NCBI GenBank assembly: GCA_947629175.1
Contig: CANRCT010000020.1
Span: 1 to 58,006 of the forward strand
Origin: an uncultured Muribaculaceae bacterium
GTDB lineage: Bacteria; Bacteroidota; Bacteroidia; Bacteroidales; Muribaculaceae
Direction of reading: 5' to 3'
DNA length: 58,006 bases
Position numbers and translations under genes: made by a program. The notes under the pieces were generated by a model. That model saw only the letters and a program-made list of their open reading frames with translations, did no database searches and was not told where the DNA came from. Shown here piece after piece: positions 21,917 to 37,324 of the stretch (position 1 is its first letter; the number at the start of each line of letters is the position of its first letter).

Positions 21917-23083
21917 TCAGTCGTTGCGGAGCTGCTTGCTCACCTTGGCTCCCATCTCCTGAAGCTTTTCGGCGCGGGAGAGGAGTGATCCTTTGCCGTC
22001 GCTGAGCTTGTTGAGCGCAGCCTCGTAGGCGCGCTGGGTGCTCCCGAGCGATGCTCCGATACGGTTGAGATCCTTGACGAAGTCGGAAAATTTGTCATAC
22101 ATCCGTCCGGCGGCCTCGGCTATCTCGATGGTGTTGCGGGTCTGCTTGTCGCGCACCCACAGCTGCGAGATCAGCCGGAGAGCCGATATCAGATGGGTCG
22201 GCGATACGATCAGCACCCTCTTGTCGTAGGCTCTTTGCCATAGATCGGCATCAGTCTGCATGGCGGCCATATAGGCGGCCTCGTTGGGGATGAACATCAT
22301 GACGAAATCGAGAGTCTCGCCGTCGGCCGTTGTCTCGTAATGCTTCGCGCCGAGTTCATCCACGTGCCTTCTTACAGACTCCACGTGGCGCCTTGCTGCC
22401 ATGCTCCGCTGCTCTTCGGTCTGTGCTTCGGTCATGTCTATGAAAGCTGTAAGCGACGCCTTTGAATCAATAATGATGCATCTGTTGTCGGGGTAGTGCA
22501 CCACTACGTCGGGGCGAAGGCGCTGACGGTCACTGTCGGTGTCGGCGTCATGCGAGGCCTGTGTGGTGAACTCGTGCCCTTCGCGGAGTCCCGACTTCTC
22601 GAGAATGGTCTGCAGCACGATCTCTCCCCACTGGCCCTGCCGGCGGTTGTTGCCGCGGAGCGCCTGTGAGAGTTCTCGTGCTTCCCGCCCGATGCTCTGG
22701 TTGGTCTCCACAAGATTGCGTATGGCCTGTTGCAGCGAGAATCTCTCCCGGGCCTCCTCGGAGTAGCATTGGCCTACGGTGGCGCTGAACCGTTCGATGT
22801 CAGCTTTAAGCGGAGCGAGCACCTGTTGCAGCCGCTCCTCGTTGCGTTGTCTCAGATCGGTGGCCTGTGCCGCCATTAAGTCTGAAGCTATGTGGCGGAA
22901 CCGTTCGCTGTCCTCCTCGCGGCGCCGACGTTCCTCATCGGCGGCCGATGCAGTAAGGCGCAGCCGCTCCTCAAGCCTGACGCGTTCCTTTTCCGACTCG
23001 CGCAGCCTGTTTTGAGAGCGGACAAATAAGGCGGCCGTGCATGCGAGCATGGCCGCCAGAAAAATCAGAATTATCGTTGTCAC
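21917..23083 (-). CDS. rmuC: DNA recombination protein RmuC homologue
   Basis: 388 aa. An N-terminal membrane anchor (residues 3-22) is followed by a long coiled coil rich in Arg/Glu (about 25-150) and the RmuC domain with GQWGEIVLQTILEKSGL, RPDVVVHYPDNRCIIIDSKASL and VMMFIPNEAAYMAA. The D...DSK arrangement is nuclease-like, and RmuC limits inversion of short repeats in E. coli. It converges with nadE across an 18-bp gap holding a small hairpin (GACAGC/GCTGTC). Confidence 0.93.
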   Translation of the reverse strand: MTTIILIFLAAMLACTAALFVRSQNRLRESEKERVRLEERLRLTASAADEERRRREEDSERFRHIASDLMAAQATDLRQRNEERLQQVLAPLKADIERFSATVGQCYSEEARERFSLQQAIRNLVETNQSIGREARELSQALRGNNRRQGQWGEIVLQTILEKSGLREGHEFTTQASHDADTDSDRQRLRPDVVVHYPDNRCIIIDSKASLTAFIDMTEAQTEEQRSMAARRHVESVRRHVDELGAKHYETTADGETLDFVMMFIPNEAAYMAAMQTDADLWQRAYDKRVLIVSPTHLISALRLISQLWVRDKQTRNTIEIAEAAGRMYDKFSDFVKDLNRIGASLGSTQRAYEAALNKLSDGKGSLLSRAEKLQEMGAKVSKQLRND

Positions 23084-23090
23084 TTTATCG

Positions 23091-23651
23091 TCACTTCTTT
23101 TTGACGGTCCATCCGAACTTGCCGATCTCTTCGCCCTGCCGGTAATAGTGGCCGTGGGAATAGTTGATGAGGCCGGCGCGTCCGAGATCGAAAGCCCCGG
23201 TGTCGGGATCGAGCAGTGAATCGTCGGCCAGCACGCCGAGCACTTCGGCTATCATCATATCATGGCTGCCAAGATGCATTATCTCTTTGACGCGGCACTC
23301 AATGTTGAGCGGCGATTCGACAATATACGGGCACGCCACGTTCACGCCTTTGCCTTTCGTCAGTCCGGCAGCCTCCCATTTATCGATATCGCGGCCCGAC
23401 TTCACTCCGCATAGATCAGTGGCCCGGGCCATGCTTTCCGTAGTCAGGTTGATGGTGAATTCCATCGTCGACGTTATTAGGGGATAGGAGTAGCGCTCGG
23501 GGCGTACCGATATATAGCACATGGCCGGATTGGTGCAGATGGTGCCGGTCCAGGCCACAGTGATCAGATTGGACTTCTCCATCGTGCCGCAGCTGACAAG
23601 CACGGCCGGGAGCGGATATATCATCGTGCCCGGTTTCCAGTTCTGTCTCAT
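23091..23651 (-). CDS. Flavin reductase-like domain protein
   Basis: 186 aa of the FMN-binding split-barrel/flavin reductase-like family, starting MRQNWKPGTMIYPLPAVLVSCG. The NLITVAWTGTICTNPAMCYISVRPERYSY segment is typical of Bacteroidetes members that bind FMN and reduce small substrates. The frame is open upstream into pyrI, but residues before this Met look like antisense coding. It lies 10 bp behind pyrI on the same strand. Confidence 0.88.
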   Translation of the reverse strand: MRQNWKPGTMIYPLPAVLVSCGTMEKSNLITVAWTGTICTNPAMCYISVRPERYSYPLITSTMEFTINLTTESMARATDLCGVKSGRDIDKWEAAGLTKGKGVNVACPYIVESPLNIECRVKEIMHLGSHDMMIAEVLGVLADDSLLDPDTGAFDLGRAGLINYSHGHYYRQGEEIGKFGWTVKKK

Positions 23652-23661
23652 TCTTTCAGGT

Positions 23662-24123
23662 TCAGCAGAGTTGCACGTCGGCGCTTCCCACCTCCTTGCA
23701 GCAGTAGTTGCAGCGGAGCGTGAGCGACTGGCGGTCGGCCACAGTGAACCGGGTGCGCATCGGCTCATTGTTGGTGATGCACTTCGGATTGCCGCACTTC
23801 ACTATGCCTACGATCTCGTCGGGCAGTTCCACATGGCGCTTCTCCACCACCTCGAAGTCGCGTATGATGTTGATTACCGCGCCCGGAGCGATGATGGCTA
23901 TGCGGTTGAGCGTCTCTTCGGGAAAAAACACGTCGGCTATCTTGATGATACCCTTGGTGCCCATCAGGCGCGAGTCGAGATTATTGCCGATAGTCACGTG
24001 TGTGCCGACATTCTCAATGCCGAGCAGCTTCACTACCTTGAAAAGGGCTGTGCTTGGTATATGGTCGATCACCGTGCCGTTGCGGAGCGCGGCTACGGCC
24101 AATTCTTTCTTCTGAGTGTTCAT
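23662..24123 (-). CDS. pyrI: Aspartate carbamoyltransferase regulatory chain
   Basis: 153-aa allosteric subunit of aspartate transcarbamoylase. The N-terminal allosteric domain (AALRNGTVIDHIPS) binds nucleotides. The C-terminal zinc domain has CGNPKC and CNYCC, giving the four zinc ligands. I chose MNTQKKELAV (153 aa) as in other PyrI proteins. An ATG nine codons earlier overlaps the pyrB stop by 4 bp and remains a plausible coupled start. Confidence 0.95.
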   Translation of the reverse strand: MNTQKKELAVAALRNGTVIDHIPSTALFKVVKLLGIENVGTHVTIGNNLDSRLMGTKGIIKIADVFFPEETLNRIAIIAPGAVINIIRDFEVVEKRHVELPDEIVGIVKCGNPKCITNNEPMRTRFTVADRQSLTLRCNYCCKEVGSADVQLC

Positions 24124-24146
24124 AGGAGTTTCACTTTTGATGGTGA

Positions 24147-25064
24147 TCATGCTTGTTCGATGCCGAGTGCGCGGCAGATGATAGCCTGTCGGGCATAAAG
24201 TCCGTTGCGCGCCTGGTCGAAATAATAAGCTTTCGGATTGTCGTCGACATCCTGGTCGATCTCGGTGATGCGGGGGAGAGGATGGAGCACCTTGAGATTG
24301 TCCTTCGCGTCGGCCAGCATGGCGTTGCGCAGCGTGTAAAGGCTTTTTACCTTTTCGTATTCCATAATGTCGGTGAAGCGCTCGCGCTGCACGCGGGTCA
24401 TGTAAAGGATATCCGAAGAATTGATCACATCCGCCGAGAAGTCGGTGTGCTCGGTGTATCTGATGCCGTTGCGGTCGCAGAGCTCCTTGTATTCGTCGGG
24501 CATGCGCAGCTCCTCGCAGGCCACGAAGTGGAATGTCGGGTTGAAGTATCTCATGGCCTGGATCAGCGAGTGGACCGTGCGGCCATATTTCAGGTCGCCC
24601 ACCATCGTGATGGTCAGATCCTCGAGTTTGCCCTGGGTCTTGTAGATGGAGTAGAGGTCGAGCATCGTCTGCGACGGGTGCTGGTTGGCACCGTCGCCGG
24701 CGTTGATCACAGGCACGTCGGTCACTTCCGTGGCATATCGCGCCGCCCCTTCGAGATAATGGCGCATTACGATGAGATCCACGTAGTTGCTCACCATTTT
24801 TATCGTGTCTTTCAGGGTCTCACCCTTGGCGGAGCTGCTGGTGCTCGCATCCGAAAAACCGATCACGCGGCCACCGAGGCGGTTTACTGCCGTCTCAAAG
24901 CTCAGGCGTGTGCGTGTGGAAGGTTCGAAAAACAGTGTGGCGACAACCTTGCCGTCGAGCAGTCGGCGGTTGGGGTTCTCTTCGAAGCGTCGCGCTGATT
25001 CCAGAAGCTGGAGTATTTCGTCGCGGCTGATATCATCTATTGAAACGAGACTTTTGCTGTTCAT
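24147..25064 (-). CDS. pyrB: Aspartate carbamoyltransferase catalytic chain
   Basis: 305-aa catalytic subunit of the first committed step of pyrimidine synthesis. It contains [13 protein letters not shown] (carbamoyl-phosphate loop), [28 protein letters not shown] and VHSLIQAM, all standard for PyrB. It is followed by pyrI and a flavin reductase on the same strand. A complete Bacteroidetes promoter lies upstream. Confidence 0.97.
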
Positions 25065-25092
25065 GGCTCGCGTGTGATTGAAATGGTTTACG

Positions 25093-25124
25093 CAAAGTTA
25101 GCGGATTCCCGCGCCCCCTGCAAA
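25093..25124 (-). promoter_or_regulatory. pyrB promoter
   Basis: Minus strand TTTG (25121-25124), 20 bp, TAACTTTG (25093-25100): a near-perfect Bacteroidetes promoter, 28 bp from the pyrB ATG. The rest of the gap to 25203 contains a short inverted repeat, CAATAC-CTT-GTATTG (25156-25170), of unknown role. Confidence 0.7.
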
Positions 25125-25203
25125 TGTTCCGCCCGATTTTTTTCATCACTGCGATCAATACCTTGTATTGCCAAGGGTCATTTCCATTTTTCAGCCAAAA
25201 ACA

Positions 25204-25629
25204 CTAAAAATCATCATCCATCATATCGTAGTCGTCCTGTTCGTCAGGGAAATCATCGTATGGTTGAGAATCGCTCCCCGAAGTCCATTCATTCCCGGTG
25301 CTATGACGACCGATGCGGTTATAATCAATATCATAGTTTCCGTGATGCTGGTAGGAGCGATTAAAGCCTTTATTATCGCGCATGAATATATCCAGATCAT
25401 CGAGATCCTCGGAATTGCCCGAATCATCAATTGAATTATCACTGACATCTGTAACTGCATCATCAGGGGCTATTCCCACATCAAGATTGCCGTTCTGATA
25501 TTCACTGTTTCCGTCAACTGAAGCTCCTGCAACCTCAGCGTGCATATCATGCTCCGTTGTGGGCTTCCTGAATTTATCAAACAGCCAGCGAAACAAGAAA
25601 AACTCACCTATGTATTTCCAGAATTTCAT
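25204..25629 (-). CDS. Small strongly acidic protein closing the accessory operon
   Basis: 141 aa. A hydrophobic/basic start (MKFWKYIGEFFLFRWLFDKF) is followed by a hydrophilic, very Asp-rich region (SIDDSGNSEDLDDLDIF, then DDFPDEQDDYDMMDDDF at the C-terminus). I do not recognise a named family. It starts 2 bp behind the GIY-YIG gene. The acidic tail could mimic DNA or bind a basic partner, and the amphipathic N-terminus could touch the membrane; both are speculation. Confidence 0.7.
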   Translation of the reverse strand: MKFWKYIGEFFLFRWLFDKFRKPTTEHDMHAEVAGASVDGNSEYQNGNLDVGIAPDDAVTDVSDNSIDDSGNSEDLDDLDIFMRDNKGFNRSYQHHGNYDIDYNRIGRHSTGNEWTSGSDSQPYDDFPDEQDDYDMMDDDF

Positions 25630-25631
25630 GT

Positions 25632-26822
25632 CTAATGATAAATTATTTGTTGGAGTTGTGGATTATATTCAATTGATTTACCCGATATAATCCCATTAAC
25701 AGCCTCATTGATAACTCTAAATGGAACTATAAACCATTCTTTGGGATTGTGACCGTCCACAGTAACCTGTAATTGGACTGATGCAAAGAGTTTATGGATA
25801 AGGGATTCGAATGTTGATGATTTCACGTTATAGACTTTCCATGTAGCCACGACCTCGACATCAGCGCAAAGGTATGTGGGCTCGTTTTTTGCGTTAGCTA
25901 TTCGGCTTTCAACCGATGTAACGGTGAAACCGATTTTATAGAGGTCTTTGATGGCAGCTATCTCGGGACGAGTAGATTTTGATCGCAATACATAGATTGT
26001 ACCACTCTCAACGTCCTTATCAGTAATAGTGAAGCACTGCTCAAATTCTTCATCGGTCATGTCGGAACAATCAACAACGGAATACCCGGTAACAGATAGG
26101 TTCTTTGCGATAGTCTTATATTTTATGTCAGACTCAGCACCGTTCTCATATATAACCCTTGTGCGTCCATCTCGATCTCCGTGCTTATTCACACCCTCAT
26201 CTTCAAAGGCTGCGAGATATGCAATCATACCATTATCAACAAAGAAGGAGCCAACTTTAAGGTTTTTGACACTGAATTTGATAAGACAATATCTGCCCGA
26301 TTTCAACCCGAGTTGAATCTCCTTAAAGCTTTCGGCGTACTTGTCGAAGTCCTCGCAAGGGCGACGTTTGCCGATATACTCGGCTTCTTTACGGGCTTCA
26401 AGGCGTTGGTGCATATATTCGGGTATGTCAAACAGCCCGAGGTCATTACCCGCCTCAATATCAGCGAGCAATGGATCGTTAAGAATAGCTTCAAGCTGTT
26501 CTTCTTCCGTCAGCTCGCGTTGATATTCAGGCAAAGGTTCTTCCACCGTCTGAACAGGCTGTGGAAGAATACCGATGTCATCAAACGGGCGGCAACGCTC
26601 AATCTTTTTCTCGCTTTTAAGTATGCCGGTCCATTTGTGAAAAAGAGAGGCTTCCGCCGGAATGTCCCCGGGCAGTCGGCCATTGGTTTCGTAGAAAGTC
26701 AATATCTCCTGAAAGCCGGCTATAAGGCGGTCGCTCGACGTGGTGCGCTTTTTCGGTGCGGTAACATCTGCCAAAAGCGGATCTTCAAAAATCTTTTCAA
26801 ATTCCTTATCCCAGTTTATCAT
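25632..26822 (-). CDS. GIY-YIG nuclease (T5orf172/MUG113-like) with duplicated N-terminal motif
   Basis: 396 aa. The C-terminal catalytic domain shows TIYVL (275-279), LYKIGFT (294-300), the following Arg in ESRIANAK (307) and Glu339 in TFESLIHKLF: the GIY, YIG, Arg and Glu landmarks of GIY-YIG nucleases, close to the T5orf172/MUG113 type. The N-terminal half contains two copies of a short element: DPLLADV at 14-20 and DPLLADI at 116-122. Each is followed by an Arg-Pro motif (ERCRPFDD, 75-82, and GKRRPCEDF, 151-159). The ATG overlaps the helicase stop by 4 bp. It would be the cleaving component of the operon. Confidence 0.86.
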   Translation of the reverse strand: MINWDKEFEKIFEDPLLADVTAPKKRTTSSDRLIAGFQEILTFYETNGRLPGDIPAEASLFHKWTGILKSEKKIERCRPFDDIGILPQPVQTVEEPLPEYQRELTEEEQLEAILNDPLLADIEAGNDLGLFDIPEYMHQRLEARKEAEYIGKRRPCEDFDKYAESFKEIQLGLKSGRYCLIKFSVKNLKVGSFFVDNGMIAYLAAFEDEGVNKHGDRDGRTRVIYENGAESDIKYKTIAKNLSVTGYSVVDCSDMTDEEFEQCFTITDKDVESGTIYVLRSKSTRPEIAAIKDLYKIGFTVTSVESRIANAKNEPTYLCADVEVVATWKVYNVKSSTFESLIHKLFASVQLQVTVDGHNPKEWFIVPFRVINEAVNGIISGKSIEYNPQLQQIIYH

Positions 26823-28795
26823 TGTTGCTGTGCGAGTTTATGACGTTTGAGTTGGCGTAGGTGTTCGATAGCCATAGCGATGCGGCGAGCCAACGGGTCG
26901 CCGTCGGTAATCTCCGGCTTTGTTTTGCCCGGATTTTCCTCGCGCCACTTGGGAAGATACTTGGTGAAAAGCAGTATTGCCTCTTCATCAGTAAGTTTCT
27001 CTGAACGTTTATCCTCGATAACATACTGAATGGTGCGCAGCACCTCGGGGGTAAGCGATTTGCTGACAACCTCGTAAGCGCGTTGGAAAGGATTGATTTC
27101 GGCAATAAGATTTATGTCAAGGTCATTGAGATTAACGAACTTGTTTGCAATCTTGATGAATTTATTGCCGGAATCGTCGGGCCCAATAACCTGCTCGCCT
27201 TGTGTGGCGATAGTCAGGATTGTGTGTTTTGCAACCGCATCGACATCGTCCTCTGACAAGTCGGGATATGTTTCGCGGATAATCTTGGGGATATAGACCT
27301 CGGTAATCATCTCGGTCATTCCTTCACCGATTATAGCTTCACGTATATTCTTATCGGAGAGCGTAGTGGCAACGAGGGTATCAAGATCGTTCTCAACTAT
27401 AGCTTTGGTTTTGTCGTTGAGTTCAGGCAGACCTTTGACCTCGATAACGTGGTCATCCTCGTCCGGCTTCTTCGGCTTATCAGGCGTGTCTTCATCGTCG
27501 ACCTTGGTCTTGAAATTCCATTTGGGAGCCATAACCTGCTCCATTAGCAATGACGCGGATATTGCTTTGAGAAAATCGTTGACTGCCATTGAAACATCAT
27601 CCTGCGCCGCGTCGGGGCAAGGGATAAGGTTCGTGAATTGCGCGTGGTTTTTGCCCTCGCAGTCGCGGGTGCAACGTCCGATGATTTGTACAACCTCAGT
27701 TAGAGAAGCACGTATGCCGATGGTAATGCAGTGCTCGCACCACTCCCAGTCGAAACCCTCTTTGGCTGTGCCGAGTGCGATAAGGATGTCGAGCGAGTCG
27801 CGGCTGTTCATTCGTTGCAGATATGACTGCAATGCATCGCGCTGTTCTTTGCTGTCTTCTACAAGGTCACCGACGGTGAGAATACGGCCATCGGCAGTTT
27901 TCACCTTGTAGAGATAGTTGTTATAGTCGCGGTCGACAATCTCACCGATATATTTGATAATTTCTGCCACCTGGTCGTGCTTATTCATGAACGCCCCGGT
28001 CTTGCTGTTGGGATGGGGAATATGGATAAGCGTTTTCTTGTGAGTATCGAGTACATCGGGAATGGCAGTAAGGTAATTACCTTGGAAGAAACTGTAGCCG
28101 ATACCGAGACTTTTCAGCCATTTATAACCGTTGAGCTGCTGATAGTAGTTATAGTTGATGGTCGGCTGAAACATAGCCTCGTCTTCTGGGCGCATCACAG
28201 GTACGGCATCACCACGGAAGTATGAGCCGGTCATAGCGAGAATATGAGCCGAAGTTTCGTTGAGAAGTCGGCGTATCAGTGTGCCGAGGCGGTTGTCCTC
28301 GTCAGCTGAACCGTGGTGAAACTCGTCTATACCAAAGAAAACATTGTCGAGTTTTCGGGCATCAATACCGTTGAGCGAATTAAGTAGCGTGGCATGAGTG
28401 CAGACGAGTTTTGTAGCGGTGGGATGATCGAGAAATTCTCTGACAATCGACTTCTTGGAGTTCTCGCTTCCGGCATTGAGGCAAAGGTTCCAATAAGGGG
28501 CAACGTTCCAGTCTGCAAAAAATCCGAACTTCTTCAAGGGGGTGTCCTTGAAGCTTCGACCGATATTTTGCTGAGGAACGGCCACGATTACTTTCTTCAC
28601 ACCTTGATTGGCGAGTTTATCAAGAGCCACAAACATCATGGCTCGGCTCTTGCCCGATGCAGGTGGTGCCTTGACGAGCAAGTGCTGACGATGGCGTTGG
28701 CCATAAACCATAGCTTGCATTTCGCGCATACCGAGCGCATCAGTATTGCTTGACTTGCTAGTTTGGGCATATTGAACTTCAACAAGGTTACTCAT
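26819..28795 (-). CDS. DEAD/DEAH-like superfamily 2 helicase
   Basis: 658 aa. Motif I is PPASGKS (44-50), motif II is the unusual DEFHH (157-161), motif III-like AMTGSYFRGD (187-196), and motif VI QIIGRCTRDC. A Q-motif-like MREMQ precedes motif I. The C-terminal ~250 residues after the helicase core have no recognisable domain. The overall form is that of the restriction-type (ResIII) helicases that move on DNA. It starts 7 bp behind the DUF2971 gene and overlaps the GIY-YIG gene by 4 bp. Confidence 0.88.
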   Translation of the reverse strand: MSNLVEVQYAQTSKSSNTDALGMREMQAMVYGQRHRQHLLVKAPPASGKSRAMMFVALDKLANQGVKKVIVAVPQQNIGRSFKDTPLKKFGFFADWNVAPYWNLCLNAGSENSKKSIVREFLDHPTATKLVCTHATLLNSLNGIDARKLDNVFFGIDEFHHGSADEDNRLGTLIRRLLNETSAHILAMTGSYFRGDAVPVMRPEDEAMFQPTINYNYYQQLNGYKWLKSLGIGYSFFQGNYLTAIPDVLDTHKKTLIHIPHPNSKTGAFMNKHDQVAEIIKYIGEIVDRDYNNYLYKVKTADGRILTVGDLVEDSKEQRDALQSYLQRMNSRDSLDILIALGTAKEGFDWEWCEHCITIGIRASLTEVVQIIGRCTRDCEGKNHAQFTNLIPCPDAAQDDVSMAVNDFLKAISASLLMEQVMAPKWNFKTKVDDEDTPDKPKKPDEDDHVIEVKGLPELNDKTKAIVENDLDTLVATTLSDKNIREAIIGEGMTEMITEVYIPKIIRETYPDLSEDDVDAVAKHTILTIATQGEQVIGPDDSGNKFIKIANKFVNLNDLDINLIAEINPFQRAYEVVSKSLTPEVLRTIQYVIEDKRSEKLTDEEAILLFTKYLPKWREENPGKTKPEITDGDPLARRIAMAIEHLRQLKRHKLAQQQ

Positions 28796-28802
28796 ATATA
28801 AC

Positions 28803-29636
28803 TCAGTTACGATATGGGATTTCAGACTCGATTATATTATCAGCCAAATGTCTAAGCCCTTTAGACATAAAGAATAAACGCAAAGTATTAATATTGCGTT
28901 TATCACAATCCGGTCCTATGGTTATTGATTTAAGTGAATCCAATGGAAGTTTTATTATCGTATAAGGGGTAAGTATGTCATTTATAACCCTAAACTTAGG
29001 CGTTTTACAATTTGTAATTAAGCGAGTTTCCTTTTCATAACTGTATATGCCATTTTTTATGCGGGCTGCAATTACACCAATAGCTTCTAATGAACGTACT
29101 AAATCGTAATCTCTTTGAGGTATATCAAATGGAGGCTGACCTAATTTAGAGAAGAATAACTCCATCCCTTCTTGAATAGTATTCACTATTGAGTCATAAT
29201 CCTTTTCACAATTATAAATACAGTCACTCAAATCACAATTTTCAGACTTGATTTGATTGTGATCAAGTCCTAAAACGACGCCCCTTCCTTCATTTCCATA
29301 CATCCTCCACATATTGATATTATCACAATTCCGAGAGAATGATATAGCATACGCAATACCTAAATTACTACTTATTGCGGAACCAATAAGCATCATATCT
29401 TTTAGATTTTCACAATCTAAAATTACCTTCGCCCTATCTTTTAGAATTGGGCACGAAATATTCTCGATAGCATCTTTTATAAGATCAATGCCTTCGGAAA
29501 TCTCTCGCGGATCATTCATATACGCGCAATTTGTTGCCCAAAAAGTTAAGTACGGGGTTTCTGGAGTATAGCCGTCAAATATACACTTGACAACTTCTAA
29601 AGACGTATAATGGTATAGTTGATATTCGTCATTCAT
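28803..29636 (-). CDS. DUF2971 protein
   Basis: 277 aa with the DUF2971 landmarks: YQLYHYTSLE at the N-terminus, FWATNCAYMNDPREI, AISFSRNCDNINMWRMYG and a later YEKETRLI segment. Function is unknown; DUF2971 genes are common passengers in defence and phage-related loci. The gene is clearly richer in A+T than its neighbours. It is nevertheless stitched into the operon, overlapping the methyltransferase stop by 4 bp and ending 7 bp before the helicase. Confidence 0.85.
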   Translation of the reverse strand: MNDEYQLYHYTSLEVVKCIFDGYTPETPYLTFWATNCAYMNDPREISEGIDLIKDAIENISCPILKDRAKVILDCENLKDMMLIGSAISSNLGIAYAISFSRNCDNINMWRMYGNEGRGVVLGLDHNQIKSENCDLSDCIYNCEKDYDSIVNTIQEGMELFFSKLGQPPFDIPQRDYDLVRSLEAIGVIAARIKNGIYSYEKETRLITNCKTPKFRVINDILTPYTIIKLPLDSLKSITIGPDCDKRNINTLRLFFMSKGLRHLADNIIESEIPYRN

Positions 29637-32374
29637 TTCTTGATCATTTTAGCATAGAGTTTGAAAAGGTGTTCGAGGCGTTCTTCGTCGGAAGTGAACG
29701 GCTCGGGGCGGTAGATGCGCTCCACGGCGAGGTCAAGTTGATGGTGAGCCTCGCGCAGTTCCTCTGGCATGGATTCGGGATTATACATTTCGCCAAGCGT
29801 CATATCGAAGTTCTCGTCACGAATATTGAGGATGTTCTGCGCAAGACGCTCCAATTCCTCTTTCTCAGCTGTTGTCAGCTTAGGGAAAGGGAATGAGTCA
29901 TAAACTAAGTTTGAGTATCTGTAGTCATTCTTTAGCTTTCCTCCAATAGCAGAAAGCCAAATTGTGTGCATACGATTGGCTAATAGAGCAAAAGTGAGCA
30001 ACGAAGCACCATATATAACTTGTGTAGAATCTGATGCAATAGTATTTGAGTCAACGAAACCGATGGGTATGTATTGGCGTCTTTCAGACGATACACGTGG
30101 CACTAAAAGCGCTTTGCCGTCACGATGTGCTCGCTGTCTGAACATATGAGGATATTCTGCGGCTTCGACTGTTGAAGCTGCTACACTATTGTTTCTGAAT
30201 TCTGCAACTGCTTCTATCCGAGTTTTTAAGGGTGGGAATTCCTCGGCTTCCTCACGTTCGTTTTCTCCTATCCAAATGCAATAACGTGTATCTCCATTGA
30301 TAAAGCTATCAGAACCTTGATAGAACCGAATAAATTTATCTGATTCGGGATAGTCGGCAAGGATTTTCTCTCGTTCCTGTGGCGTTAAGATTAGATTACC
30401 TCCATCAGTGGGCTTATTCCCGAACACCATTTTGGGAAGATTAGATATAGGATTCTTTCTCCGCTCAATAATGATTTCCGGTGCAGCTAATAAATATCCA
30501 TTGATATGCTCGCAACTTTGTATGGATTTTTTGCTAACAAGTTTCTTATTCTCTTTGCTTCTGTTTGCGAGTCCAATAATTACTACTATTACCGCAGCCT
30601 TAGCTTTCGCATTGTTACTCCATTTGAATGATTGATATGCAAAATTTATTTCGACATTTTTGGCAAAAATATTCGGCCATAACAGTGCAACACTGTCTCC
30701 TTGGCATATTGAATTGGTTGACACAAAAGCGCATTTTGCATTGCATCCACTTATATACTTGGCACCTTGATAAAACCATGAGGCGATATAATCAAGATTT
30801 TTATAATTCTTGAAGTGGCCACAGACTACTTCAAGATCTTCTTTTTGGTTTTCATCTTGCATGGAACTACCGAGATATGGCGGGTTGCCCATGATATAAA
30901 CTTCATCATCGGTGGTGTGGGGGCAGACAGTGTTCCAGTCGAGCCGACAGGCGTTGCCGCAGACTATATGGCCGGAAGGCTTTAACGGCAGAGTTTCGGG
31001 GAGGACATATAGTTCTTCCTGAAACTTGACGTTCATCTGATGCTCGGCGAGCCACATTGAGAGTGTGGCAGTTTCAGCGGCATACTCGTCGAGTTCGATG
31101 CCGTAGAACTGCGTGAGCGTGATGTTGGGAAATGGCAGTAATGCCATGCCGGTTATTTCGCGCATCGCTTTCCAAATGCGTATTTCAAGCTCGCGCAGTC
31201 GCTTATAGGTGATGATAAGGAAGTTACCGCTACCGCACGCCGGGTCAAAGAATTTAATCTTTGACAGGCGTATGAGCAGATTGCGCAGTCGCTGTGAAGC
31301 GCGGTCGTGATTGACTTTCTTTGCTATCTTGTCGCGGGCTTCGGCGCAAGCAGCCTCAAATTCTTCTTCGAGGGCATCGAGGAAAAGTGGACGTATAACC
31401 TTTTCGATGTTCGGCACCGATGTGTAGTGCATACCGAGACCTGCGCGATGTTCCGGCGTTACGACCGCCTGAATCATCGAGCCGAAGATGTCGGGATTGA
31501 TTTCGCGCCAGTTGTATTCGCCACAGTTGAGAATCAGAGTGCGTGCACGGCGAGAAAGAACGGGGATGGGATAACGTTCGCGGAACAGACCGCCATTGAC
31601 ATACGGAAATACCTCGTAGAGCTTCGGGAGGGTCGCGAGCACTTGAGTGTCGTTGGTAGACATGGCAAGAAACGCACGGTCGATGAACTCGCCGAGATCT
31701 GAACCGTCCTCTTTTGTATGAGTCTTGAGCGTGTTGGTAAACAGGTTGTCTTCGGGGAAAAGACCGGTATCTTCGGCAAAGAAGCAGAAAAGCAGACGCG
31801 ACATAAACACGTTGAGCGCATGAACGGTCTGCGGGTCGCGTATATCGTTATAGCGGCGAATATCGTCGAAGAGCTTCGCCATCAATTCAGCAGACTTGAC
31901 ATCGGCCTCTGCTTCTTGGGTGAACTGTATTTTCTCGATACCTGCAAGGGGCGTGAAAAATTCAAAGTCTTTCCAAAGGAGGTCGATGCGGTTCTCGTAC
32001 CAGTCGTTTTCTTTGGGGTCGTATGCCACAACCATTACGCCATTGCTCACGATGTAGAGACGCGGAGAGTGCTTTGCAATCTTCGCATCATCGCGCATAT
32101 CGTTGATAATATCATACATCGCCGAGCAGTTGCCGTCGAGGGTATTGACAGCAACCGGGCGATATGCGACAAGATTCTTGATAAGGATAGTTTCGCCATC
32201 CTTGGCAAGATTGCCGGGGCCGTCCTTTGTACGGCGTATCTGACCGTCGCCATATCCGGCGAAGACGCGCAGGAGATCATAAATGAACTCCGTCGCCGAT
32301 GTTCCGCGCTTACCAAGCAGCTCCAGTTCATCGGTAGCCTGAACCTGTGAATATGATTTGGTTTTCTTTGCCAT
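29633..32374 (-). CDS. MmeI-like class I DNA methyltransferase
   Basis: 913 aa. The N-terminal and helical spacer regions (1-370) match MmeI-like proteins. The methyltransferase core has motif I FFDPACGSGNFL (375-386), GIELDEYAAETA (425-436) and motif IV NPPY (497-500), indicating N6-adenine (or N4-cytosine) methylation. Residues ~500-780 form the target-recognition region, followed by the typical C-terminal SDSFPFP-like segment (YDSFPFPKL). In MmeI the N-terminus carries a PD-(D/E)xK nuclease. Here I cannot find a D...ExK motif (the corresponding stretch reads ETILIKNLV), so the protein is probably a methyltransferase only. DNA for the recognition region is noticeably AT-richer than the rest of the gene. 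Confidence 0.9.
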   Translation of the reverse strand: MAKKTKSYSQVQATDELELLGKRGTSATEFIYDLLRVFAGYGDGQIRRTKDGPGNLAKDGETILIKNLVAYRPVAVNTLDGNCSAMYDIINDMRDDAKIAKHSPRLYIVSNGVMVVAYDPKENDWYENRIDLLWKDFEFFTPLAGIEKIQFTQEAEADVKSAELMAKLFDDIRRYNDIRDPQTVHALNVFMSRLLFCFFAEDTGLFPEDNLFTNTLKTHTKEDGSDLGEFIDRAFLAMSTNDTQVLATLPKLYEVFPYVNGGLFRERYPIPVLSRRARTLILNCGEYNWREINPDIFGSMIQAVVTPEHRAGLGMHYTSVPNIEKVIRPLFLDALEEEFEAACAEARDKIAKKVNHDRASQRLRNLLIRLSKIKFFDPACGSGNFLIITYKRLRELEIRIWKAMREITGMALLPFPNITLTQFYGIELDEYAAETATLSMWLAEHQMNVKFQEELYVLPETLPLKPSGHIVCGNACRLDWNTVCPHTTDDEVYIMGNPPYLGSSMQDENQKEDLEVVCGHFKNYKNLDYIASWFYQGAKYISGCNAKCAFVSTNSICQGDSVALLWPNIFAKNVEINFAYQSFKWSNNAKAKAAVIVVIIGLANRSKENKKLVSKKSIQSCEHINGYLLAAPEIIIERRKNPISNLPKMVFGNKPTDGGNLILTPQEREKILADYPESDKFIRFYQGSDSFINGDTRYCIWIGENEREEAEEFPPLKTRIEAVAEFRNNSVAASTVEAAEYPHMFRQRAHRDGKALLVPRVSSERRQYIPIGFVDSNTIASDSTQVIYGASLLTFALLANRMHTIWLSAIGGKLKNDYRYSNLVYDSFPFPKLTTAEKEELERLAQNILNIRDENFDMTLGEMYNPESMPEELREAHHQLDLAVERIYRPEPFTSDEERLEHLFKLYAKMIKK

Positions 32375-32378
32375 GACT

Positions 32379-32600
32379 TTATGCGACTTTGCCGGTTTCT
32401 ATTTCGGATTTTAGGAACTGGAAGATATAGACTGCTCCCTGATAGTAGAGGCCACATTCGGGGTCGTTGAGTTTGGCGAAGGTAGCTGATGAATACAGCT
32501 CATCAAGGGCGCGGTGTATGTCCCAGCCATATTCCGCCATAAGCATTTCAGCAAGTTCTGCCGCAAGGCATTCTATCTGAAACTGTATGTCTGGTGTCAT
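32379..32600 (-). CDS. Small protein linked to DUF3791
   Basis: 73 aa, soluble, starting MTPDIQFQIECLAAELAEML, with the pattern ALDELYSSATFAKLNDPECG and GAVYIFQFLK. Small proteins of this look regularly accompany DUF3791 genes in Bacteroidetes; the function is unknown. It overlaps the DUF3791 gene by 4 bp upstream and ends 4 bp before the methyltransferase start. Confidence 0.78.
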   Translation of the reverse strand: MTPDIQFQIECLAAELAEMLMAEYGWDIHRALDELYSSATFAKLNDPECGLYYQGAVYIFQFLKSEIETGKVA

Positions 32601-32821
32601 ATCTTACCTCCTTCCCGTTGGCAAATGACCTGAAGGTCTGAAACTGCATCGTCAATAGAGAGGGTATGTTCGGCGGCATAGCAGTCGAGAAGGAAATCTA
32701 TGCCTGTGAAACGGCGCAAATATGCGTATGCCTGCATATTGGAGAGCTGATACCGCTGGGCGAAAGCTCCTACACAAGCCACTACATATTCAATTCTATC
32801 AAATATTTCTTTCTTGTCCAT
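32597..32821 (-). CDS. DUF3791 protein
   Basis: 74 aa with the DUF3791 pattern: IEYVVACVGAFAQRYQLSN, AYAYLRRFTGIDFLLDCYAAEHTLS and DAVSDLQVICQREGG. DUF3791 genes are often paired with DUF3990 (ADP-ribosyltransferase-like) genes in what look like toxin-antitoxin loci; no DUF3990 gene is present here. It begins 2 bp behind the stop of the HTH fragment and overlaps the next gene by 4 bp. Confidence 0.85.
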   Translation of the reverse strand: MDKKEIFDRIEYVVACVGAFAQRYQLSNMQAYAYLRRFTGIDFLLDCYAAEHTLSIDDAVSDLQVICQREGGKI

Positions 32822-32823
32822 GA

Positions 32824-32910
32824 CTATGCTTTGTTGCTCACAATTAAATCTTTAACATCAATATCAAGTAATTCTGAAATCCTTACAAGCGTGTCAGTCA
32901 AAGGTCGCAT
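32824..32910 (-). pseudogene. C-terminal fragment of an XRE-like (C-protein type) regulator
   Basis: A 28-codon frame beginning MRPLTDTLVRISELLDIDVK and ending DLIVSNKA. It reads like the last two helices of short XRE regulators that often precede restriction-modification genes in Bacteroidetes. The DNA-binding helix-turn-helix is missing and I cannot find it in any frame upstream. A TATCTTTG box lies 11 bp before the ATG, so the fragment may be transcribed as the leader of the operon. Confidence 0.55.
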
Positions 32911-32921
32911 TGATGTTATAG

Positions 32922-32929
32922 CAAAGATA
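32922..32929 (-). promoter_or_regulatory. Putative -7 box of the accessory operon
   Basis: TATCTTTG on the minus strand, at the upstream edge of the eight-gene array and just before the regulator fragment. No other promoter-like box is visible up to 33049, where bioD ends. Confidence 0.5.
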
Positions 32930-33049
32930 CGAATTATTTTTTAGAGAAATCGAAATGTGGTCAGATCCTGTACAAAAAAACATTAGGACTTGTCTGGCGG
33001 TCATCAGCAGATATGGGGAGGGTTGGGGAGAATTGGGGCGGAGCAGGTG

Positions 33050-33688
33050 TCAGAGGGTGGGGACGAGCATGAAGGGGGTGCCGGGGAAGTGGCGCTCGAC
33101 GTAGGCGCGGAGATAGGCCTGGGTGTCGGGCGAGATGACCGGGTCGGTGTCAAACCGTGTGTTGTAGAGAATGGAGTGAAGCGTCATGCCGCGCGAGGCG
33201 AGGGCTTCAAGCGAAAGGATCGTGTGGTTGATCGATCCGAGCTTGCCATTGGTGACCAGTGCGACCGGGAGATTCCTCTCGCGGGGATAGTCGATCGTCA
33301 GCGTGCTGTCGGTGAGAGGCACCATCAGGCCGCCCGCTCCCTCTACAAGCACGGTGTCATAAGCCTGCGTCAGGCGTCGCAGCGCAGTGTCGATCGCGTT
33401 GAAGTCGATCTCTCGCCGGTCGATCTTTGCGGCGAGATGAGGCGATGCCGGATAGCTGAAAATTTGGGGCGCGGTGGTAAGATCGGCGTCCTCCGGCAGG
33501 GGAGTGCCGGTAATGCGCCGGTGGATTTCGATATCCTCTGAATGGCCCTGGCATCCGGTCTGGATGAATTTCATAGTCGCGACGCGAAGTCCGCGGCCGC
33601 CAAGCTCCTTTGCAAGCCAGCCTGTGGCATAGCTTTTGCCGGCATCGGTGTCGATGCCGGATATGAAAATCACTTTTGATTCATTCAT
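33050..33688 (-). CDS. bioD: ATP-dependent dethiobiotin synthetase
   Basis: 212 aa. P-loop SGIDTDAGKSY near the N-terminus (a variant of GTDTxVGKT), catalytic Lys in TMKFIQTG, and EGAGGLMVPL. It closes the ureido ring of biotin from diaminopelargonic acid. It overlaps the lgt stop by 4 bp. The other bio genes are not in the window. Confidence 0.94.
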   Translation of the reverse strand: MNESKVIFISGIDTDAGKSYATGWLAKELGGRGLRVATMKFIQTGCQGHSEDIEIHRRITGTPLPEDADLTTAPQIFSYPASPHLAAKIDRREIDFNAIDTALRRLTQAYDTVLVEGAGGLMVPLTDSTLTIDYPRERNLPVALVTNGKLGSINHTILSLEALASRGMTLHSILYNTRFDTDPVISPDTQAYLRAYVERHFPGTPFMLVPTL

Positions 33689-34551
33689 TTTCTTCTCTTG
33701 TCTGTCGGTTCGTCGGCATAACGGTCGGGAAATTCGATATGAACTTTCGGGCGGCTAAGCGACCATATGACCAGGATGATGCCTGCTAAAATGAACGGTA
33801 TGCTGAGCCACTGGCCCATGTTGAGAGTCATGTCGGCTTCGAACGCGGTCTGGTCGTTCTTGATAAACTCGATGAGGAATCTGGGAAGGAATATGCCGAT
33901 AAAGAATACTCCGAAAAGGAGCCCCGGACGTTCTTCGGCATTTTTCTTCCAGTACATCCACATCAGCAGAGCGAACAGCGCGAAATAGCACAGCGCCTCG
34001 TAGATCTGTGTGGGATGGCAGGCCTGTCCGAGATACATTTCGTGCCACTGGCGCGAGCGCACGAACATGAATCCCCAGGGAAGCGTCGTGGCCGTGCCGT
34101 AGATCTCCGAGTTCATCAGATTGCCTAAGCGGATCAGGCCTCCCACCAGCGCTATCGGTATCACCAGACGGTCGAACGTCCATATCGGACTGCGCTTTGT
34201 GGTGAAGATCGAATAGAGTATCACGGCCAGTATGATGGCTATCGTGCCGCCATGGCTTGCCAGACCGCCCTCCCAGATTTTAAGTATCTCAAGCGGATGC
34301 TGGCTGTAGTATGACCATTCGTAGAAAAACACGTGGCCCAGACGCGCGCCGATCATCGTGGCGCATACCACCCATATGAGCAGTATGCCGACCCATTTTT
34401 CAGGAGCGCCCTCATGGCGGTAGATGCGTCCGAGTATGCTGGTGCCTAACAGGAAGCCGACGGCAAACATCAGACCGTACCAGCGCACGGTTATGGGACT
34501 TGTGATTATTTCCGGACTTGCGTTCCAGACTATGAAATCCAATATGCCCAT
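33685..34551 (-). CDS. lgt: Prolipoprotein diacylglyceryl transferase
   Basis: 288-aa membrane enzyme that attaches diacylglycerol to the lipobox Cys of prolipoproteins. It has the family blocks RWYGLMFAVGF, ARLGHVFFYEWSYY, EGGLASHGG and IRLGNLMNSEIYG (signature region), with about seven membrane segments. The start at 34551 fits the family. It is followed by bioD (4-bp overlap) and preceded by a lipoprotein gene 12 bp away, a likely substrate. Confidence 0.96.
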   Translation of the reverse strand: MGILDFIVWNASPEIITSPITVRWYGLMFAVGFLLGTSILGRIYRHEGAPEKWVGILLIWVVCATMIGARLGHVFFYEWSYYSQHPLEILKIWEGGLASHGGTIAIILAVILYSIFTTKRSPIWTFDRLVIPIALVGGLIRLGNLMNSEIYGTATTLPWGFMFVRSRQWHEMYLGQACHPTQIYEALCYFALFALLMWMYWKKNAEERPGLLFGVFFIGIFLPRFLIEFIKNDQTAFEADMTLNMGQWLSIPFILAGIILVIWSLSRPKVHIEFPDRYADEPTDKRRK

Positions 34552-34563
34552 GATATCATTGCA

Positions 34564-36030
34564 TTAATATTTGATTTTGATTTTTGCCGGGAAAATGCGT
34601 CGCGGGTCTCCGAAGAGCGCGCAGCTTTCTACGGCTGTATTGCGGTTGGCAGTCACTCTGCCTGTGAACCTCGGCTCACCGTTGATGTTTACAGTCACCT
34701 CTTTTGTCAGATCCACCATCGTTTCGTCAAGAAACAGGGTGAGTTCCCCTCCCGAAGCCGCCGTATATGTCTTGGTAAGTCCGAAATCCATGTTCCATTC
34801 GGTGTTGTGGTCGGTCGTCGAGAGGCTGACTATAGAAGCAGTGATGTCGACCGTATTGTCAGCGACGTGGAATTCATACGACGGACGGATCATCTCGCCG
34901 AGCGTGCCGTCAGGTGCTTTGTCCTGACGGAGACAGTAAAACGAGGTGCGTGAGCGGTATTCCTCTCCGAGCTGGCCGCCCATAGGGAACACTTCCCAGC
35001 GGAAGAACGTCGGCACAGCTTTGCGCCGCGCTGTCTTCAGCCATGGCGATGTGGCAAGGTCGGCAAGATCTCCGTGGCCCAGACCGCCCGGCACCATCAC
35101 ATGGTGGGAATAATAGCCCGGGTATTGTTTTTCAAGTTTGTCGAGCTCGGTTTTGAAACGGCGCGACAGCTCATCGCGGCCATATCCGTAGTCGGCTCCT
35201 CCGGTATGGAGGGCAAACGCTATGTTGGCCATGTTTTCCGGCGGGCAGTTGGCCATCAGGTCGCCGCCTGCCATCGGACCGGCGCCCGCGAGGTAGTCGG
35301 CATAGAACGACGCCAGACGCTGGCTACCGTATGCGCCCTCAGATATGCCGATGAAGAATATCGCATCGGGATTGATGTCATCGGAGAGCATCGCGCGGCG
35401 GAATACGCGTTCGAAGAAGTCCTGACGCGTGGGTGTGAACCAGCGGCAGCCAGTGCCGCCTGCCGGACTCCGTGGCACGAGATAGACCGACGGCCCGTCG
35501 TTGAACCATATTCCCCATCCGAGAGTCGCCCTCCAGTCTTCGTCGGCATCGGAGCCGGAGCCATGCAGATGGATAAACAGCGGGTATCCGTCGGCGGGTT
35601 TGCTTCCCTTGCTGCCGTAGACGAAATAGGATGAAATGTTTCCCATTTTCCACTGGCCGTTGGGAGTGACGGTGTTTTCATTGAGGTTGTCAATGGCCAT
35701 AAGGTTGGGCAGCCTTTCTTTATCAGTGAGCTGATTGGCTTTTTTCCAGGCACTCCATATTTCGTCGCGCACGGTTTTCAGATCTCCGGCGCCCGCAGGG
35801 ATCTCCTTGTCTTCGGGCATGTTTGTATCCGTGCCCGACAGTATGCCCTGAAAATAAGCCGTGGTGGCGTCGACCGGTTCTTCAGGTTGTTCAGGCTCTC
35901 CCGGTTGTTCCGGCTGTTGCGGTATCTCGGGCTCCGGTTTTGGATCATCAGAGCTGCAGGCTACGGCAATAAGCGGCAGCATGAAAAGTGCTGCCGCTAA
36001 AAGTCGCGATATGATTGATCGTGATATCAT
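34564..36030 (-). CDS. Lipoprotein esterase-like alpha/beta hydrolase
   Basis: 488 aa. Lipobox LPLIAVAC (Cys at residue 25) followed by a Pro/Glu linker with imperfect PEQPxEP repeats (residues ~31-52). The catalytic domain has the nucleophile elbow GISEGAYGS and an upstream oxyanion segment FIHLHGSGSD. C-terminal residues ~400-488 look like a separate beta-sandwich. It resembles PHB-depolymerase/esterase-type hydrolases; a polysaccharide-esterase role is possible. It is placed between glyA (13 bp) and lgt (12 bp). Confidence 0.8.
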   Translation of the reverse strand: MISRSIISRLLAAALFMLPLIAVACSSDDPKPEPEIPQQPEQPGEPEQPEEPVDATTAYFQGILSGTDTNMPEDKEIPAGAGDLKTVRDEIWSAWKKANQLTDKERLPNLMAIDNLNENTVTPNGQWKMGNISSYFVYGSKGSKPADGYPLFIHLHGSGSDADEDWRATLGWGIWFNDGPSVYLVPRSPAGGTGCRWFTPTRQDFFERVFRRAMLSDDINPDAIFFIGISEGAYGSQRLASFYADYLAGAGPMAGGDLMANCPPENMANIAFALHTGGADYGYGRDELSRRFKTELDKLEKQYPGYYSHHVMVPGGLGHGDLADLATSPWLKTARRKAVPTFFRWEVFPMGGQLGEEYRSRTSFYCLRQDKAPDGTLGEMIRPSYEFHVADNTVDITASIVSLSTTDHNTEWNMDFGLTKTYTAASGGELTLFLDETMVDLTKEVTVNINGEPRFTGRVTANRNTAVESCALFGDPRRIFPAKIKIKY

Positions 36031-36043
36031 GAAAGAGATATGG

Positions 36044-37324
36044 TCAATAGGCGAATATAGGATAGTTGGCCATCATTGCGTTCACGCGGTTTCTGACGGA
36101 AGCTATCACTTCAGGGTTCTCCGGATCGGAAAGCACAGTGTCGATAAGCTCGACGATCGTTTCCATCTGATCCTCTTTCACGCCGCGGGTGGTGATGGCC
36201 GGCGTGCCGAGCCGTATGCCCGAAGTCTGGAACGGCGAGCGGCTGTCGAACGGCACCATGTTTTTGTTGGCCGTAATGTCGGCGTCGACAAGAGCACGTT
36301 CAGCTACCTTGCCGGTCAGATCGGGGAATTTGGTACGGAGGTCTACAAGCACGCAGTGATTGTCGGTGCCTCCGGAGACGATCTTGTAGCCTCGTTTGAT
36401 GAGGGCGTCGGCCATGGCACGCGCGTTTTTCTGCACCTGCTTCTGATATTCCTTGAATTCCGGCTTCAGAGCCTCGCCGAGCGCTACAGCCTTGGCTGCA
36501 ATCACGTGTTCGAGCGGGCCGCCCTGAGTGCCCGGGAATACTGCAGAGTCAAGCAGCGCCGACATCATCCTTATCTGTCCCTTCGGAGTGGTCTTGCCCC
36601 ATGGGTTGGGGAAGTCTTTACCCATGAGTATCATTCCGCCGCGAGGGCCGCGGAGTGTCTTGTGGGTCGTAGTGGTGACGATGTGTGCATGGCGGAGAGG
36701 ATTGTCAAGCAGTCCGGCAGCGATTAGTCCGGCAGGGTGTGCCATGTCGATCACCAGGATAGCGCCTATTTCGTCGGCAATCCGGCGCATGCGGGCATAA
36801 TCCCACTCGCGGCTGTAGGCGCTGGCTCCTCCGATGATCAGACGGGGACGCTCGCGACGGGCCACTTCCTCCATCTGGTCATAGTCGACCAGGCCGGTTT
36901 CGGGGCTCACATTGTATTCGAGAGCATGGAACATGAGGCCCGAGAAGTTGACCGGGGATCCGTGTGAAAGATGTCCGCCGTGTGAGAGATTAAGACCAAG
37001 GAATTTGTCGCCGGGCTTGAGGCAGGCCATGAATACAGCCATATTGGCCTGTGCGCCCGAATGAGGCTGCACGTTGACATATTCGGCTCCGAAGAGTTCC
37101 TTCGCGCGGTCGATGGCGATCTGTTCCACTTCGTCGACCACGCCGCATCCGCCGTAATAGCGGTGGCCGGGATAGCCCTCTGCATATTTGTTGGTGAGGC
37201 ATGAGCCCATGGCTTGCATCACCTCGTCGCTGACGAAGTTTTCGGATGCGATGAGTTCTATACCCTTGGCCTGGCGCTGATGCTCGCGCTCGATGAGGTC
37301 AAAAATCACTGAGTCTTTTTCCAT
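36044..37324 (-). CDS. glyA: Serine hydroxymethyltransferase
   Basis: 426-aa PLP enzyme interconverting serine and glycine with tetrahydrofolate. It has the PLP-Lys motif in [26 protein letters not shown] and [15 protein letters not shown]. It is the first gene of a closely spaced run with the lipoprotein esterase, lgt and bioD. A -7 box lies 29 bp upstream. Confidence 0.97.

Follow-up and report, generated by a model that had tools for sequence, protein, structure and literature searches.

A probable DnmA-YeeB-YeeC-type restriction-modification operon with exchangeable cargo in a Muribaculaceae genome

In Bacillus subtilis the methyltransferase DnmA, which is without the endonuclease motif of MmeI, produces GACG-m6A-G (m6A, N6-methyladenine), and its gene is followed by yeeB and yeeC (PMC7261158). 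A Type I-like restriction-modification (R-M) system has been suggested for dnmA-yeeB-yeeC, a proposal credited in the same paper to a 2009 study of MmeI, and the synteny around dnmA is conserved, with a helicase gene first and a GIY-YIG gene second downstream (PMC9973331). Here we analyze a stretch of 58,006 nucleotides (nt) from an uncultured Muribaculaceae bacterium (contig CANRCT010000020.1 of assembly GCA_947629175.1, the whole stretch being called the window hereafter). In it seven open reading frames (ORFs) form a tight array on the minus strand, running from position 32821 to 25204, in which neighbors overlap by 4 base pairs (bp) or sit 2 to 7 bp apart: two small ORFs, a methyltransferase, a protein of the DUF2971 family, a helicase, a GIY-YIG nuclease and an acidic protein. 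To judge from domain architecture, gene order and published descriptions, on which the link to the B. subtilis cluster is based, methyltransferase, helicase and nuclease make up a core of the DnmA-YeeB-YeeC kind, and the array as a whole is probably an R-M operon of this type (Type I-like and MmeI-related) that combines the core with a slot for exchangeable cargo.

The methyltransferase (29633..32374, minus strand, 913 amino acids (aa)) is of the DnmA/YeeA type and has the architecture of MmeI, matching MmeI_Mtase in Pfam (E-value 2.7e-105) together with the target-recognition (TRD), spacer, C and N domains of this enzyme. Compared with the MmeI structure 5hr4 it scores 572 bits (E-value 1.6e-170), in an alignment that begins only at residue 133. 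We take residue 133 onward to lie past the nuclease part of MmeI, whose nuclease motif we place before this residue. In the window methyltransferase and 96 homologues of 860-1000 aa the region ahead of residue 133 shows no conserved D...ExK set, and the motifs DPACGSGNF and NPPY are conserved at 90-100% in the same proteins. The protein is MmeI-like, without a PD-ExK nuclease motif of its own. The YeeB-type SF2 (superfamily 2) helicase (26819..28795, minus strand, 658 aa) is matched by the Pfam families DEAD (30.6 bits) and ResIII (28.1 bits), both over their cut-offs, and by Helicase_C at 22.7 bits, just under the cut-off of 23.5; its motifs GKS, DEFHH and QIIGR.TR are kept in an alignment of 16 sequences. 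Overlapping it by 4 bp is the gene for the YeeC-type T5orf172/GIY-YIG nuclease (25632..26822, minus strand, 396 aa), with Pfam matches to MUG113 (48.9 bits) and T5orf172 (46.0 bits). Across this protein and 131 homologues the residues G274, Y277, K296, G298 and R307 are conserved at 1.00 and E339 and H343 at 0.98. All three core genes are full length in the window. Searches of solved structures with the helicase and the GIY-YIG protein gave no useful match. In other loci the GIY-YIG protein is often split into a separate N-terminal ORF, mostly of 72-96 aa, and a shorter nuclease ORF, as seen at L017:9936-11141, L018:9930-11136 and in a number of Bacteroidota loci (loci are referred to by L numbers).

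The core is a unit that recurs in different surroundings. In an even draw of 295 Bacteroidales genomes, the window's own included, the helicase is present in 14, and the GIY-YIG gene adjoins it in 13 of these 14, the 14th being ended by the contig end. In 12 of the 14 the methyltransferase gene precedes the helicase gene in the same orientation; it is split in L216, only its end is on the contig in L218, it is absent within 9.5 kilobases (kb) upstream in L214, and it was not seen in L224, which is cut by the contig end. The same core order was found in the five plasmid loci examined out of 263 plasmid records matching the helicase, annotated for Arthrobacter, Lactobacillus, Providencia, Acinetobacter (here with the methyltransferase annotated in two pieces) and Bosea, and the same core is also present in Bacillus mediterraneensis (L093). 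The original prediction, made from the four genes downstream of the methyltransferase, had proposed an undescribed R-M-like operon of helicase, GIY-YIG nuclease and self-marking methyltransferase. Its four ORFs were confirmed in coordinates, minus strand, spacing and domain names by ORF positions and Pfam, and the R-M-like grouping is borne out by this recurrence, as is the part of its proposed neighborhood check in Bacteroidales that concerns nuclease and methyltransferase. The term undescribed has to be given up, since PMC7261158 already describes the core and PMC9973331 contains a survey of its synteny.

The slot lies between the methyltransferase stop and the helicase start (28796..29632, minus strand, in the window), a position delimited by insert counts across loci. 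In the window it is filled by the gene for a DUF2971 protein (28803..29636, minus strand, 277 aa), which overlaps the methyltransferase gene by 4 bp and is followed by the helicase gene after a gap of 7 bp; in other loci, too, many slot genes abut the methyltransferase with a 4-bp overlap. Our survey comprised 130 loci (the best 80 of at least 558 confirmed genome helicase loci, 45 loci from a viral collection and the five plasmid loci), which are related and were picked by likeness to the window's helicase. The methyltransferase/helicase junction could be judged in 109 of them; the other 21 were 19 loci with less than 2.5 kb upstream of the helicase, L057, with no recognized methyltransferase end, and L032, with about 10 kb lacking such an end. 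Counting as an insert anything longer than 250 nt, 50 of the 109 judged loci carry 269-4379 nt at this junction, and no insert was found at the helicase/nuclease junction in 123 judged loci, where the largest distance was 138 nt, measured to the first nuclease-profile match so that separate N-terminal ORFs are counted in (50/109 against 0/123, Fisher p 1.7e-20, to be read with caution as the loci are related). In the Bacteroidales sample the slot holds an insert in 7 of 12 loci, and the largest helicase/nuclease distance is 139 nt (L221). Separate co-directional ORFs are present in 47 of the 50 insert loci; the remaining three are L133 and L137, in which no co-directional ORF was chosen, and L062, in which the helicase itself is extended. 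L130 and L138 look like duplicate records. The helicase ORF of L062 (L062:9521-11971, Porphyromonas somerae) is lengthened in frame at its N-terminal end, where other loci carry cargo, by about 160 aa without a Pfam match, and is possibly a cargo-helicase fusion.

Single-linkage clustering (phmmer, E-value <1e-4) of the slot ORFs that are co-directional and at least 90 aa long, 70 in all, gave 41 clusters. This set includes ORFs of the window (L001), L005 and L141, all outside the 109 judged loci; three ORFs on the opposite strand that reach the same length were also chosen, in L026, L056 and L058. Forty proteins were scanned against Pfam, two of them L020 flanking genes; the 38 slot proteins stand for 37 of the 41 clusters, with the L038 ORF (which may be spurious), a 133-aa ORF of L047, a 273-aa ORF of L058 and the second slot ORF of L089 (a helicase fragment) outside the scan. 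The families identified are Schlafen AlbA_2 with HATPase_c_4 and a winged helix, RhuM, DUF1016/YhcG PDDEXK, DUF2971, Zeta toxin, DUF3990, AbiJ_NTD4, AAA_21 with DUF4435, polyvalent-protein kinase, SF1-type helicase, AAA_15, Abi_C, PIN, DUF5615, PDDEXK_3, KAP NTPase, Fic, DUF3800, CoiA, PDDEXK_4 and DUF6169, as well as ParE (over the cut-off in L047, under it in L044) and 23S-IVP (over the cut-off in L083, under it in L048). Twelve of the 38 proteins had no Pfam match and one more (L045) marginal matches only; when eight of these 13 were scanned with PADLOC, a single match was obtained, that of L016 to PDC-S32. Additional scans of slot proteins returned RhuM, PDDEXK_3, Y1 transposase, IVP, Schlafen, KilA-N, Abi_C, DUF3791 and Fic, and gave no match for two L213 slot proteins and a 248-aa slot protein of L023. 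Apart from the PADLOC matches and the literature on BREX considered below, several of these families are presumably tied to defence or toxin-antitoxin systems. Winged-helix parts link the 11 members of the commonest cluster; most of those scanned are of the Schlafen type, and a Fic protein (L059) also belongs to it. An IS200-like Y1 transposase is found among the slot genes of L218 (L218:3548-4003) and is a possible carrier of cargo.

Slot contents turn over rapidly. Within the set formed by the window and the 80 genome loci, whose pairs are not independent, helicase identity reaches 90% or more in 17 judged pairs; slot content differs in 12 of them and agrees in five, two of these five being empty on both sides. 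Ten of the 12 differing pairs share nothing and two (window/L021 and L078/L091) share one gene family. When helicases at least 70% identical are considered, slot content agrees in 67 of 302 pairs. The nearest relative of the window, L020 (helicase identity 96%), has an unrelated 246-aa gene in the slot, L021 (91%) has DUF2971 and a Zeta toxin, L022 (86%) has YhcG, and L023 (81%) and L024 (80%) have other genes and Schlafen. Natural pairs of filled and empty slots also exist, namely L091 (RhuM) and L094 (empty), with helicases 96.5% identical, and L055 (Schlafen) and L086 (empty), at 90.7%.

At the DNA level we compared 12 pairs, the window with L020-L024 and seven others, and found a common pattern: an N-terminal methyltransferase block of about 1.4-2 kb can be aligned, followed by a gap at the target-recognition region, an aligned 3' block, a second gap at the slot and then about 3 kb of alignable helicase and nuclease sequence, in pieces in some pairs. 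In the window the exchanged recognition region (29896..30865, minus strand) has no DNA alignment to L020 and lies between flanking blocks of 87% and 90% identity. The conserved 3' block of the methyltransferase gene (29633..29895, minus strand), which separates the two exchanged segments, is 89.5% identical to L020 over 267 nt and 92.3% to L024 over 169 nt. It measures 559 nt in L023, where the recognition region shows a gap of only about 0.4 kb, and 352 nt in L021, where it runs into the shared DUF2971 gene; in the remaining pairs its length is 259-403 nt, with 276-403 nt in the seven pairs that do not involve the window. The sequence of L067 is cut, and its upstream methyltransferase block is missing. 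Alignments break off close to the methyltransferase stop codon (in L091 about 45 nt ahead of it) and restart near the helicase start, at the start codon itself in L091/L094 and up to about 60 nt inside the helicase in L022. GC content is low in the exchanged segments (0.343 in the DUF2971 gene and 0.391 in the recognition region) compared with 0.517 in the N-terminal methyltransferase block, 0.498 in the other methyltransferase block, 0.488 in the helicase, 0.438 in the GIY-YIG gene and 0.54-0.56 in the flanks. Judging from these alignments, the target-recognition region is a second exchanged segment, set off from the slot by a conserved block, and both segments appear to have been swapped by homologous recombination via the shared blocks.

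DUF2971 is one cargo among many and not a fixed part of the operon. The protein of the window matches PF11185 with 35.3 bits (cut-off 22), the PADLOC candidate PDC-S31 (E-value 1.4e-9) and phrog_1762 (E-value 1.6e-25), a phage family of unknown function, and the residues D42, W110, Y113, G119, Y147, K194, E203 and R205 are invariant in 27 aligned sequences. An ADP-ribosyltransferase-like fold, considered on account of the motifs H-Y-T and E-x-E-x-R, found no support. While DUF2971 is present in 57 of the 295 Bacteroidales genomes, in the slot it was found only in the window and L021, by a window-grown profile over the survey loci and Pfam scans of slot proteins; this profile missed the copy of L020, and divergent copies elsewhere may have been missed as well. 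In L020 a different DUF2971 gene (L020:8049-9244) follows the nuclease and is itself followed by the acidic protein, and a Bro-N gene lies upstream of the operon at 560-1390. The window's own genome has a second DUF2971 gene on another contig (G000:C4:86529-86771, L196). The acidic protein (25204..25629, minus strand, 141 aa), located 2 bp after the GIY-YIG gene, had no match in Pfam, PADLOC, NCBIfam or PHROGs at the limits used. It is present in one copy in the window's genome; a homologue was found with confidence only in L020, and the three weak matches in the 295 Bacteroidales genomes do not show the terminal motifs sought. It is an optional, lineage-restricted accessory.

The original prediction had counted these two proteins as parts of the system, and here its neighborhood check turned out negative, as both are separable from the core. 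A new system with DUF2971 and the acidic protein as constitutive parts is very improbable, even though the spacing on one strand is tight, L021 likewise has DUF2971 as slot cargo, and both a DUF2971 gene and the acidic protein occur, rearranged, in L020. Very close relatives (L020 and L022, helicase identity 96% and 86%) have other slot content and no DUF2971 there, the slot is without any gene in 59 of the 109 judged loci, and the family is spread over 57 of the 295 genomes, so that we reject DUF2971 as a constitutive part; the acidic protein is likewise rejected as a core part, its confident homologue being confined to one other locus.

We infer that the core complex restricts DNA. In the mechanism we propose, the methyltransferase would read an asymmetric site and mark one adenine, and an unmarked site would license the helicase to translocate along the DNA and the GIY-YIG protein to cut. 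The cargo, DUF2971 in this case, would come into play once the R-M complex has been inhibited or overwhelmed, on the pattern of PrrC within EcoprrI (PMC12707154) and of the auxiliary effectors of BREX operons (PMC12839542); this step taken alone, with the cargo as a back-up or guardian effector, is put forward by analogy and tentatively. It is also conceivable, with no greater confidence, that such operons are two-cassette defence platforms, in which recognition and effector cassettes would be exchanged independently via a conserved anchor of mostly 260-400 bp and the effector would be coupled as a second line when restriction is blocked. If this were true, DUF2971 would represent an uncharacterized class of defence effector.

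The main rival concerns the guardian step only and has, in our estimate, not far from an even chance: the slot might be a transcribed site in a mobile R-M operon at which insertions are tolerated, and the cargo a series of independent single-gene defence or addiction genes that have no functional link to the core. This would fit the observation that DUF2971 is in most cases not associated with the core (57 of 295 genomes have DUF2971 and 14 of 295 the helicase), its match to a stand-alone candidate model (PDC-S31), the position of the different DUF2971 of L020 after the nuclease and outside the slot, and the toxin-antitoxin-like pairs in the slots of L044, L047 and L025, as judged by size and position. 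It fits less well with the restriction of inserts to one of two core junctions, with the 4-bp overlap between many cargo genes and the methyltransferase, which suggests coordinated expression, and with the recurrence of like effectors inside BREX operons (PMC12839542). A different view, proposed for B. subtilis, sees the methyltransferase as an orphan enzyme with a regulatory role and the helicase and nuclease as remnants without activity. Deletion of yeeB and yeeC left phage sensitivity and plaquing unchanged there (PMC9973331), loss of dnmA left transformation unaffected and the authors call the cluster a relic (PMC7261158, PMC9973331), and the DnmA site is not avoided by phages (PMC9973331). 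These data speak against activity of the core in B. subtilis. For the window we nevertheless regard such decay as improbable, as its core genes are full length, the near-invariant helicase and GIY-YIG residues in the aligned homologues are unexpected of remnants, and phage phenotypes have been reported for Vibrio crassostreae, where deletions of dnmA and yeeB raised sensitivity to some phage subclades (another study, reported in PMC9973331).

Besides the B. subtilis results, a number of observations weigh against the proposed reading. The 59 judged loci without insert are tight at the slot (3-136 nt), so that the core does not need cargo, and cargo could simply ride on the operon. The survey percentages are not prevalences, because the loci are related and were picked by helicase likeness. 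L032, which is the region of L214, has helicase and nuclease and no methyltransferase in about 10 kb upstream, and a profile search of solved structures revealed no relative of DUF2971 (the best hits, ADP-ribosylation factors at E-value 0.75, are at chance level). No assay of a cargo protein from a DnmA-YeeB-YeeC-type operon has come to our attention. Under the core-plus-slot reading, which we still consider the probable one, a widespread and little-studied R-M relative appears to have a constant site at which defence and toxin genes accumulate. Should the slot prove functional, new effectors could be sought there, given the 12 of 38 scanned slot proteins without Pfam match, and it may help to explain a B. 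subtilis core without phenotype, as in many genomes the core travels with a partner. Whether cargo is guardian or passenger is testable in one operon.

The array starts upstream of the four genes noted originally, with the methyltransferase (29633-32374) and, ahead of it, two DUF3791/PDC-M13-type ORFs (32379-32821). The first gene (32597..32821, minus strand) matches DUF3791 (PF12668, E-value 1.9e-22) and PADLOC PDC-M13A (E-value 2.2e-27), and the second (32379..32600, minus strand), overlapping it by 4 bp, is PDC-M13C-like (E-value 1.8e-14). The pair at the array head is without a DUF3990 partner; a DUF3791-DUF3990 pair is located inside the slot of L025. A motif scan yielded 21 promoter-like sites against 16.1 expected (standard deviation (sd) 4.0) and six terminator-like sites against 8.2 expected (sd 3.2).

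Comparison of the region 21917-37324 with the same-genus loci L206 and L207 (gene names assigned by eye) shows the order pyrB-pyrI-flavin reductase-like-glyA-lgt-bioD without an island in both relatives, and a permuted order in the window, glyA-34564-lgt-bioD, the island, and then pyrB-pyrI-flavin reductase-like. The island thus sits at a rearrangement point, and no exact empty chromosomal site was obtained among the relatives, because the genes near the pyrB-like gene are arranged differently there than in the window. In L023 (L023:3-13152) pyrB-pyrI-flavin reductase-like genes are found about 3 kb upstream of the same operon, and this neighborhood may be a recurrent integration area. Elsewhere in the window (17830-18786) a lipoprotein-like ORF of 318 aa with SxxK, SDN and KTG motifs resembles, as judged by eye, class A beta-lactamases.

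Several known systems were considered for the array. A Type I R-M system was rejected, as the Pfam search with the seven proteins gave no HsdS or HsdR nuclease family; N6_Mtase and ResIII were over cut-off, and the DUF3791 ORF had a weak PADLOC match to Specificity_I (E-value 0.038). N6_Mtase and ResIII domains are shared with HsdM and HsdR. DISARM was rejected because, although the methyltransferase is DrmMI-like, neither DrmA nor DrmB is among the PADLOC matches listed, which comprise all matches for six proteins and 25 of 37 for the methyltransferase. With MmeI (Type IIL) the methyltransferase shares methyltransferase, spacer, recognition and C-terminal domains, as reflected in the 572 bits to 5hr4, but MmeI has its own PD-ExK nuclease in one chain (PMC7261158), whereas in the window this motif is missing, which led us to reject a single-chain Type IIL enzyme, and cleavage would fall to a separate GIY-YIG protein together with a helicase. 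BREX offers methyltransferase-based operons with in-operon auxiliary nucleases, and among these are Schlafen proteins that combine a histidine-kinase-like part with a winged helix and resemble the slot cargo seen most often (PMC12839542). The window methyltransferase has, however, only a weak likeness to PglX among the PADLOC matches listed, and in NCBIfam its PglX score of 28.8 bits is far below the cut-off of 500; neither PglZ nor BrxC is among the listed PADLOC matches, so that BREX was rejected.

An unrelated effector gene embedded in an R-M locus is known from EcoprrI with PrrC, a Type IC R-M system with a guardian (PMC12707154). Its core proteins are different, and operons of the window type have many alternative effectors for one slot, their guardian role being putative. 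CglI, in which the R.CglI nuclease acts with the helicase-like ATPase H.CglI, is similar by description in that restriction relies on separate helicase-like and nuclease subunits (PMC5737866). Closest is DnmA-YeeB-YeeC, which has the same MmeI-like methyltransferase without endonuclease motif, SF2 helicase and T5orf172/GIY-YIG protein, in equal order and on one strand; the window differs by DUF2971 between methyltransferase and helicase, by the two DUF3791-type ORFs before and by the acidic protein after. The available portions of PMC7261158 and PMC9973331 mention an "uncharacterized protein family" throughout the neighborhood, which in some bacteria might be a further member, and contain no description of a variable slot. 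The open-access literature that we searched gave no account of a slot or of exchangeable effectors for DnmA-YeeB-YeeC, which is weak evidence of absence; DUF2971 is mentioned there in one paper. The three-gene core is therefore already known, and R-M and BREX operons offer precedents for embedded effectors; the slot is the new part.

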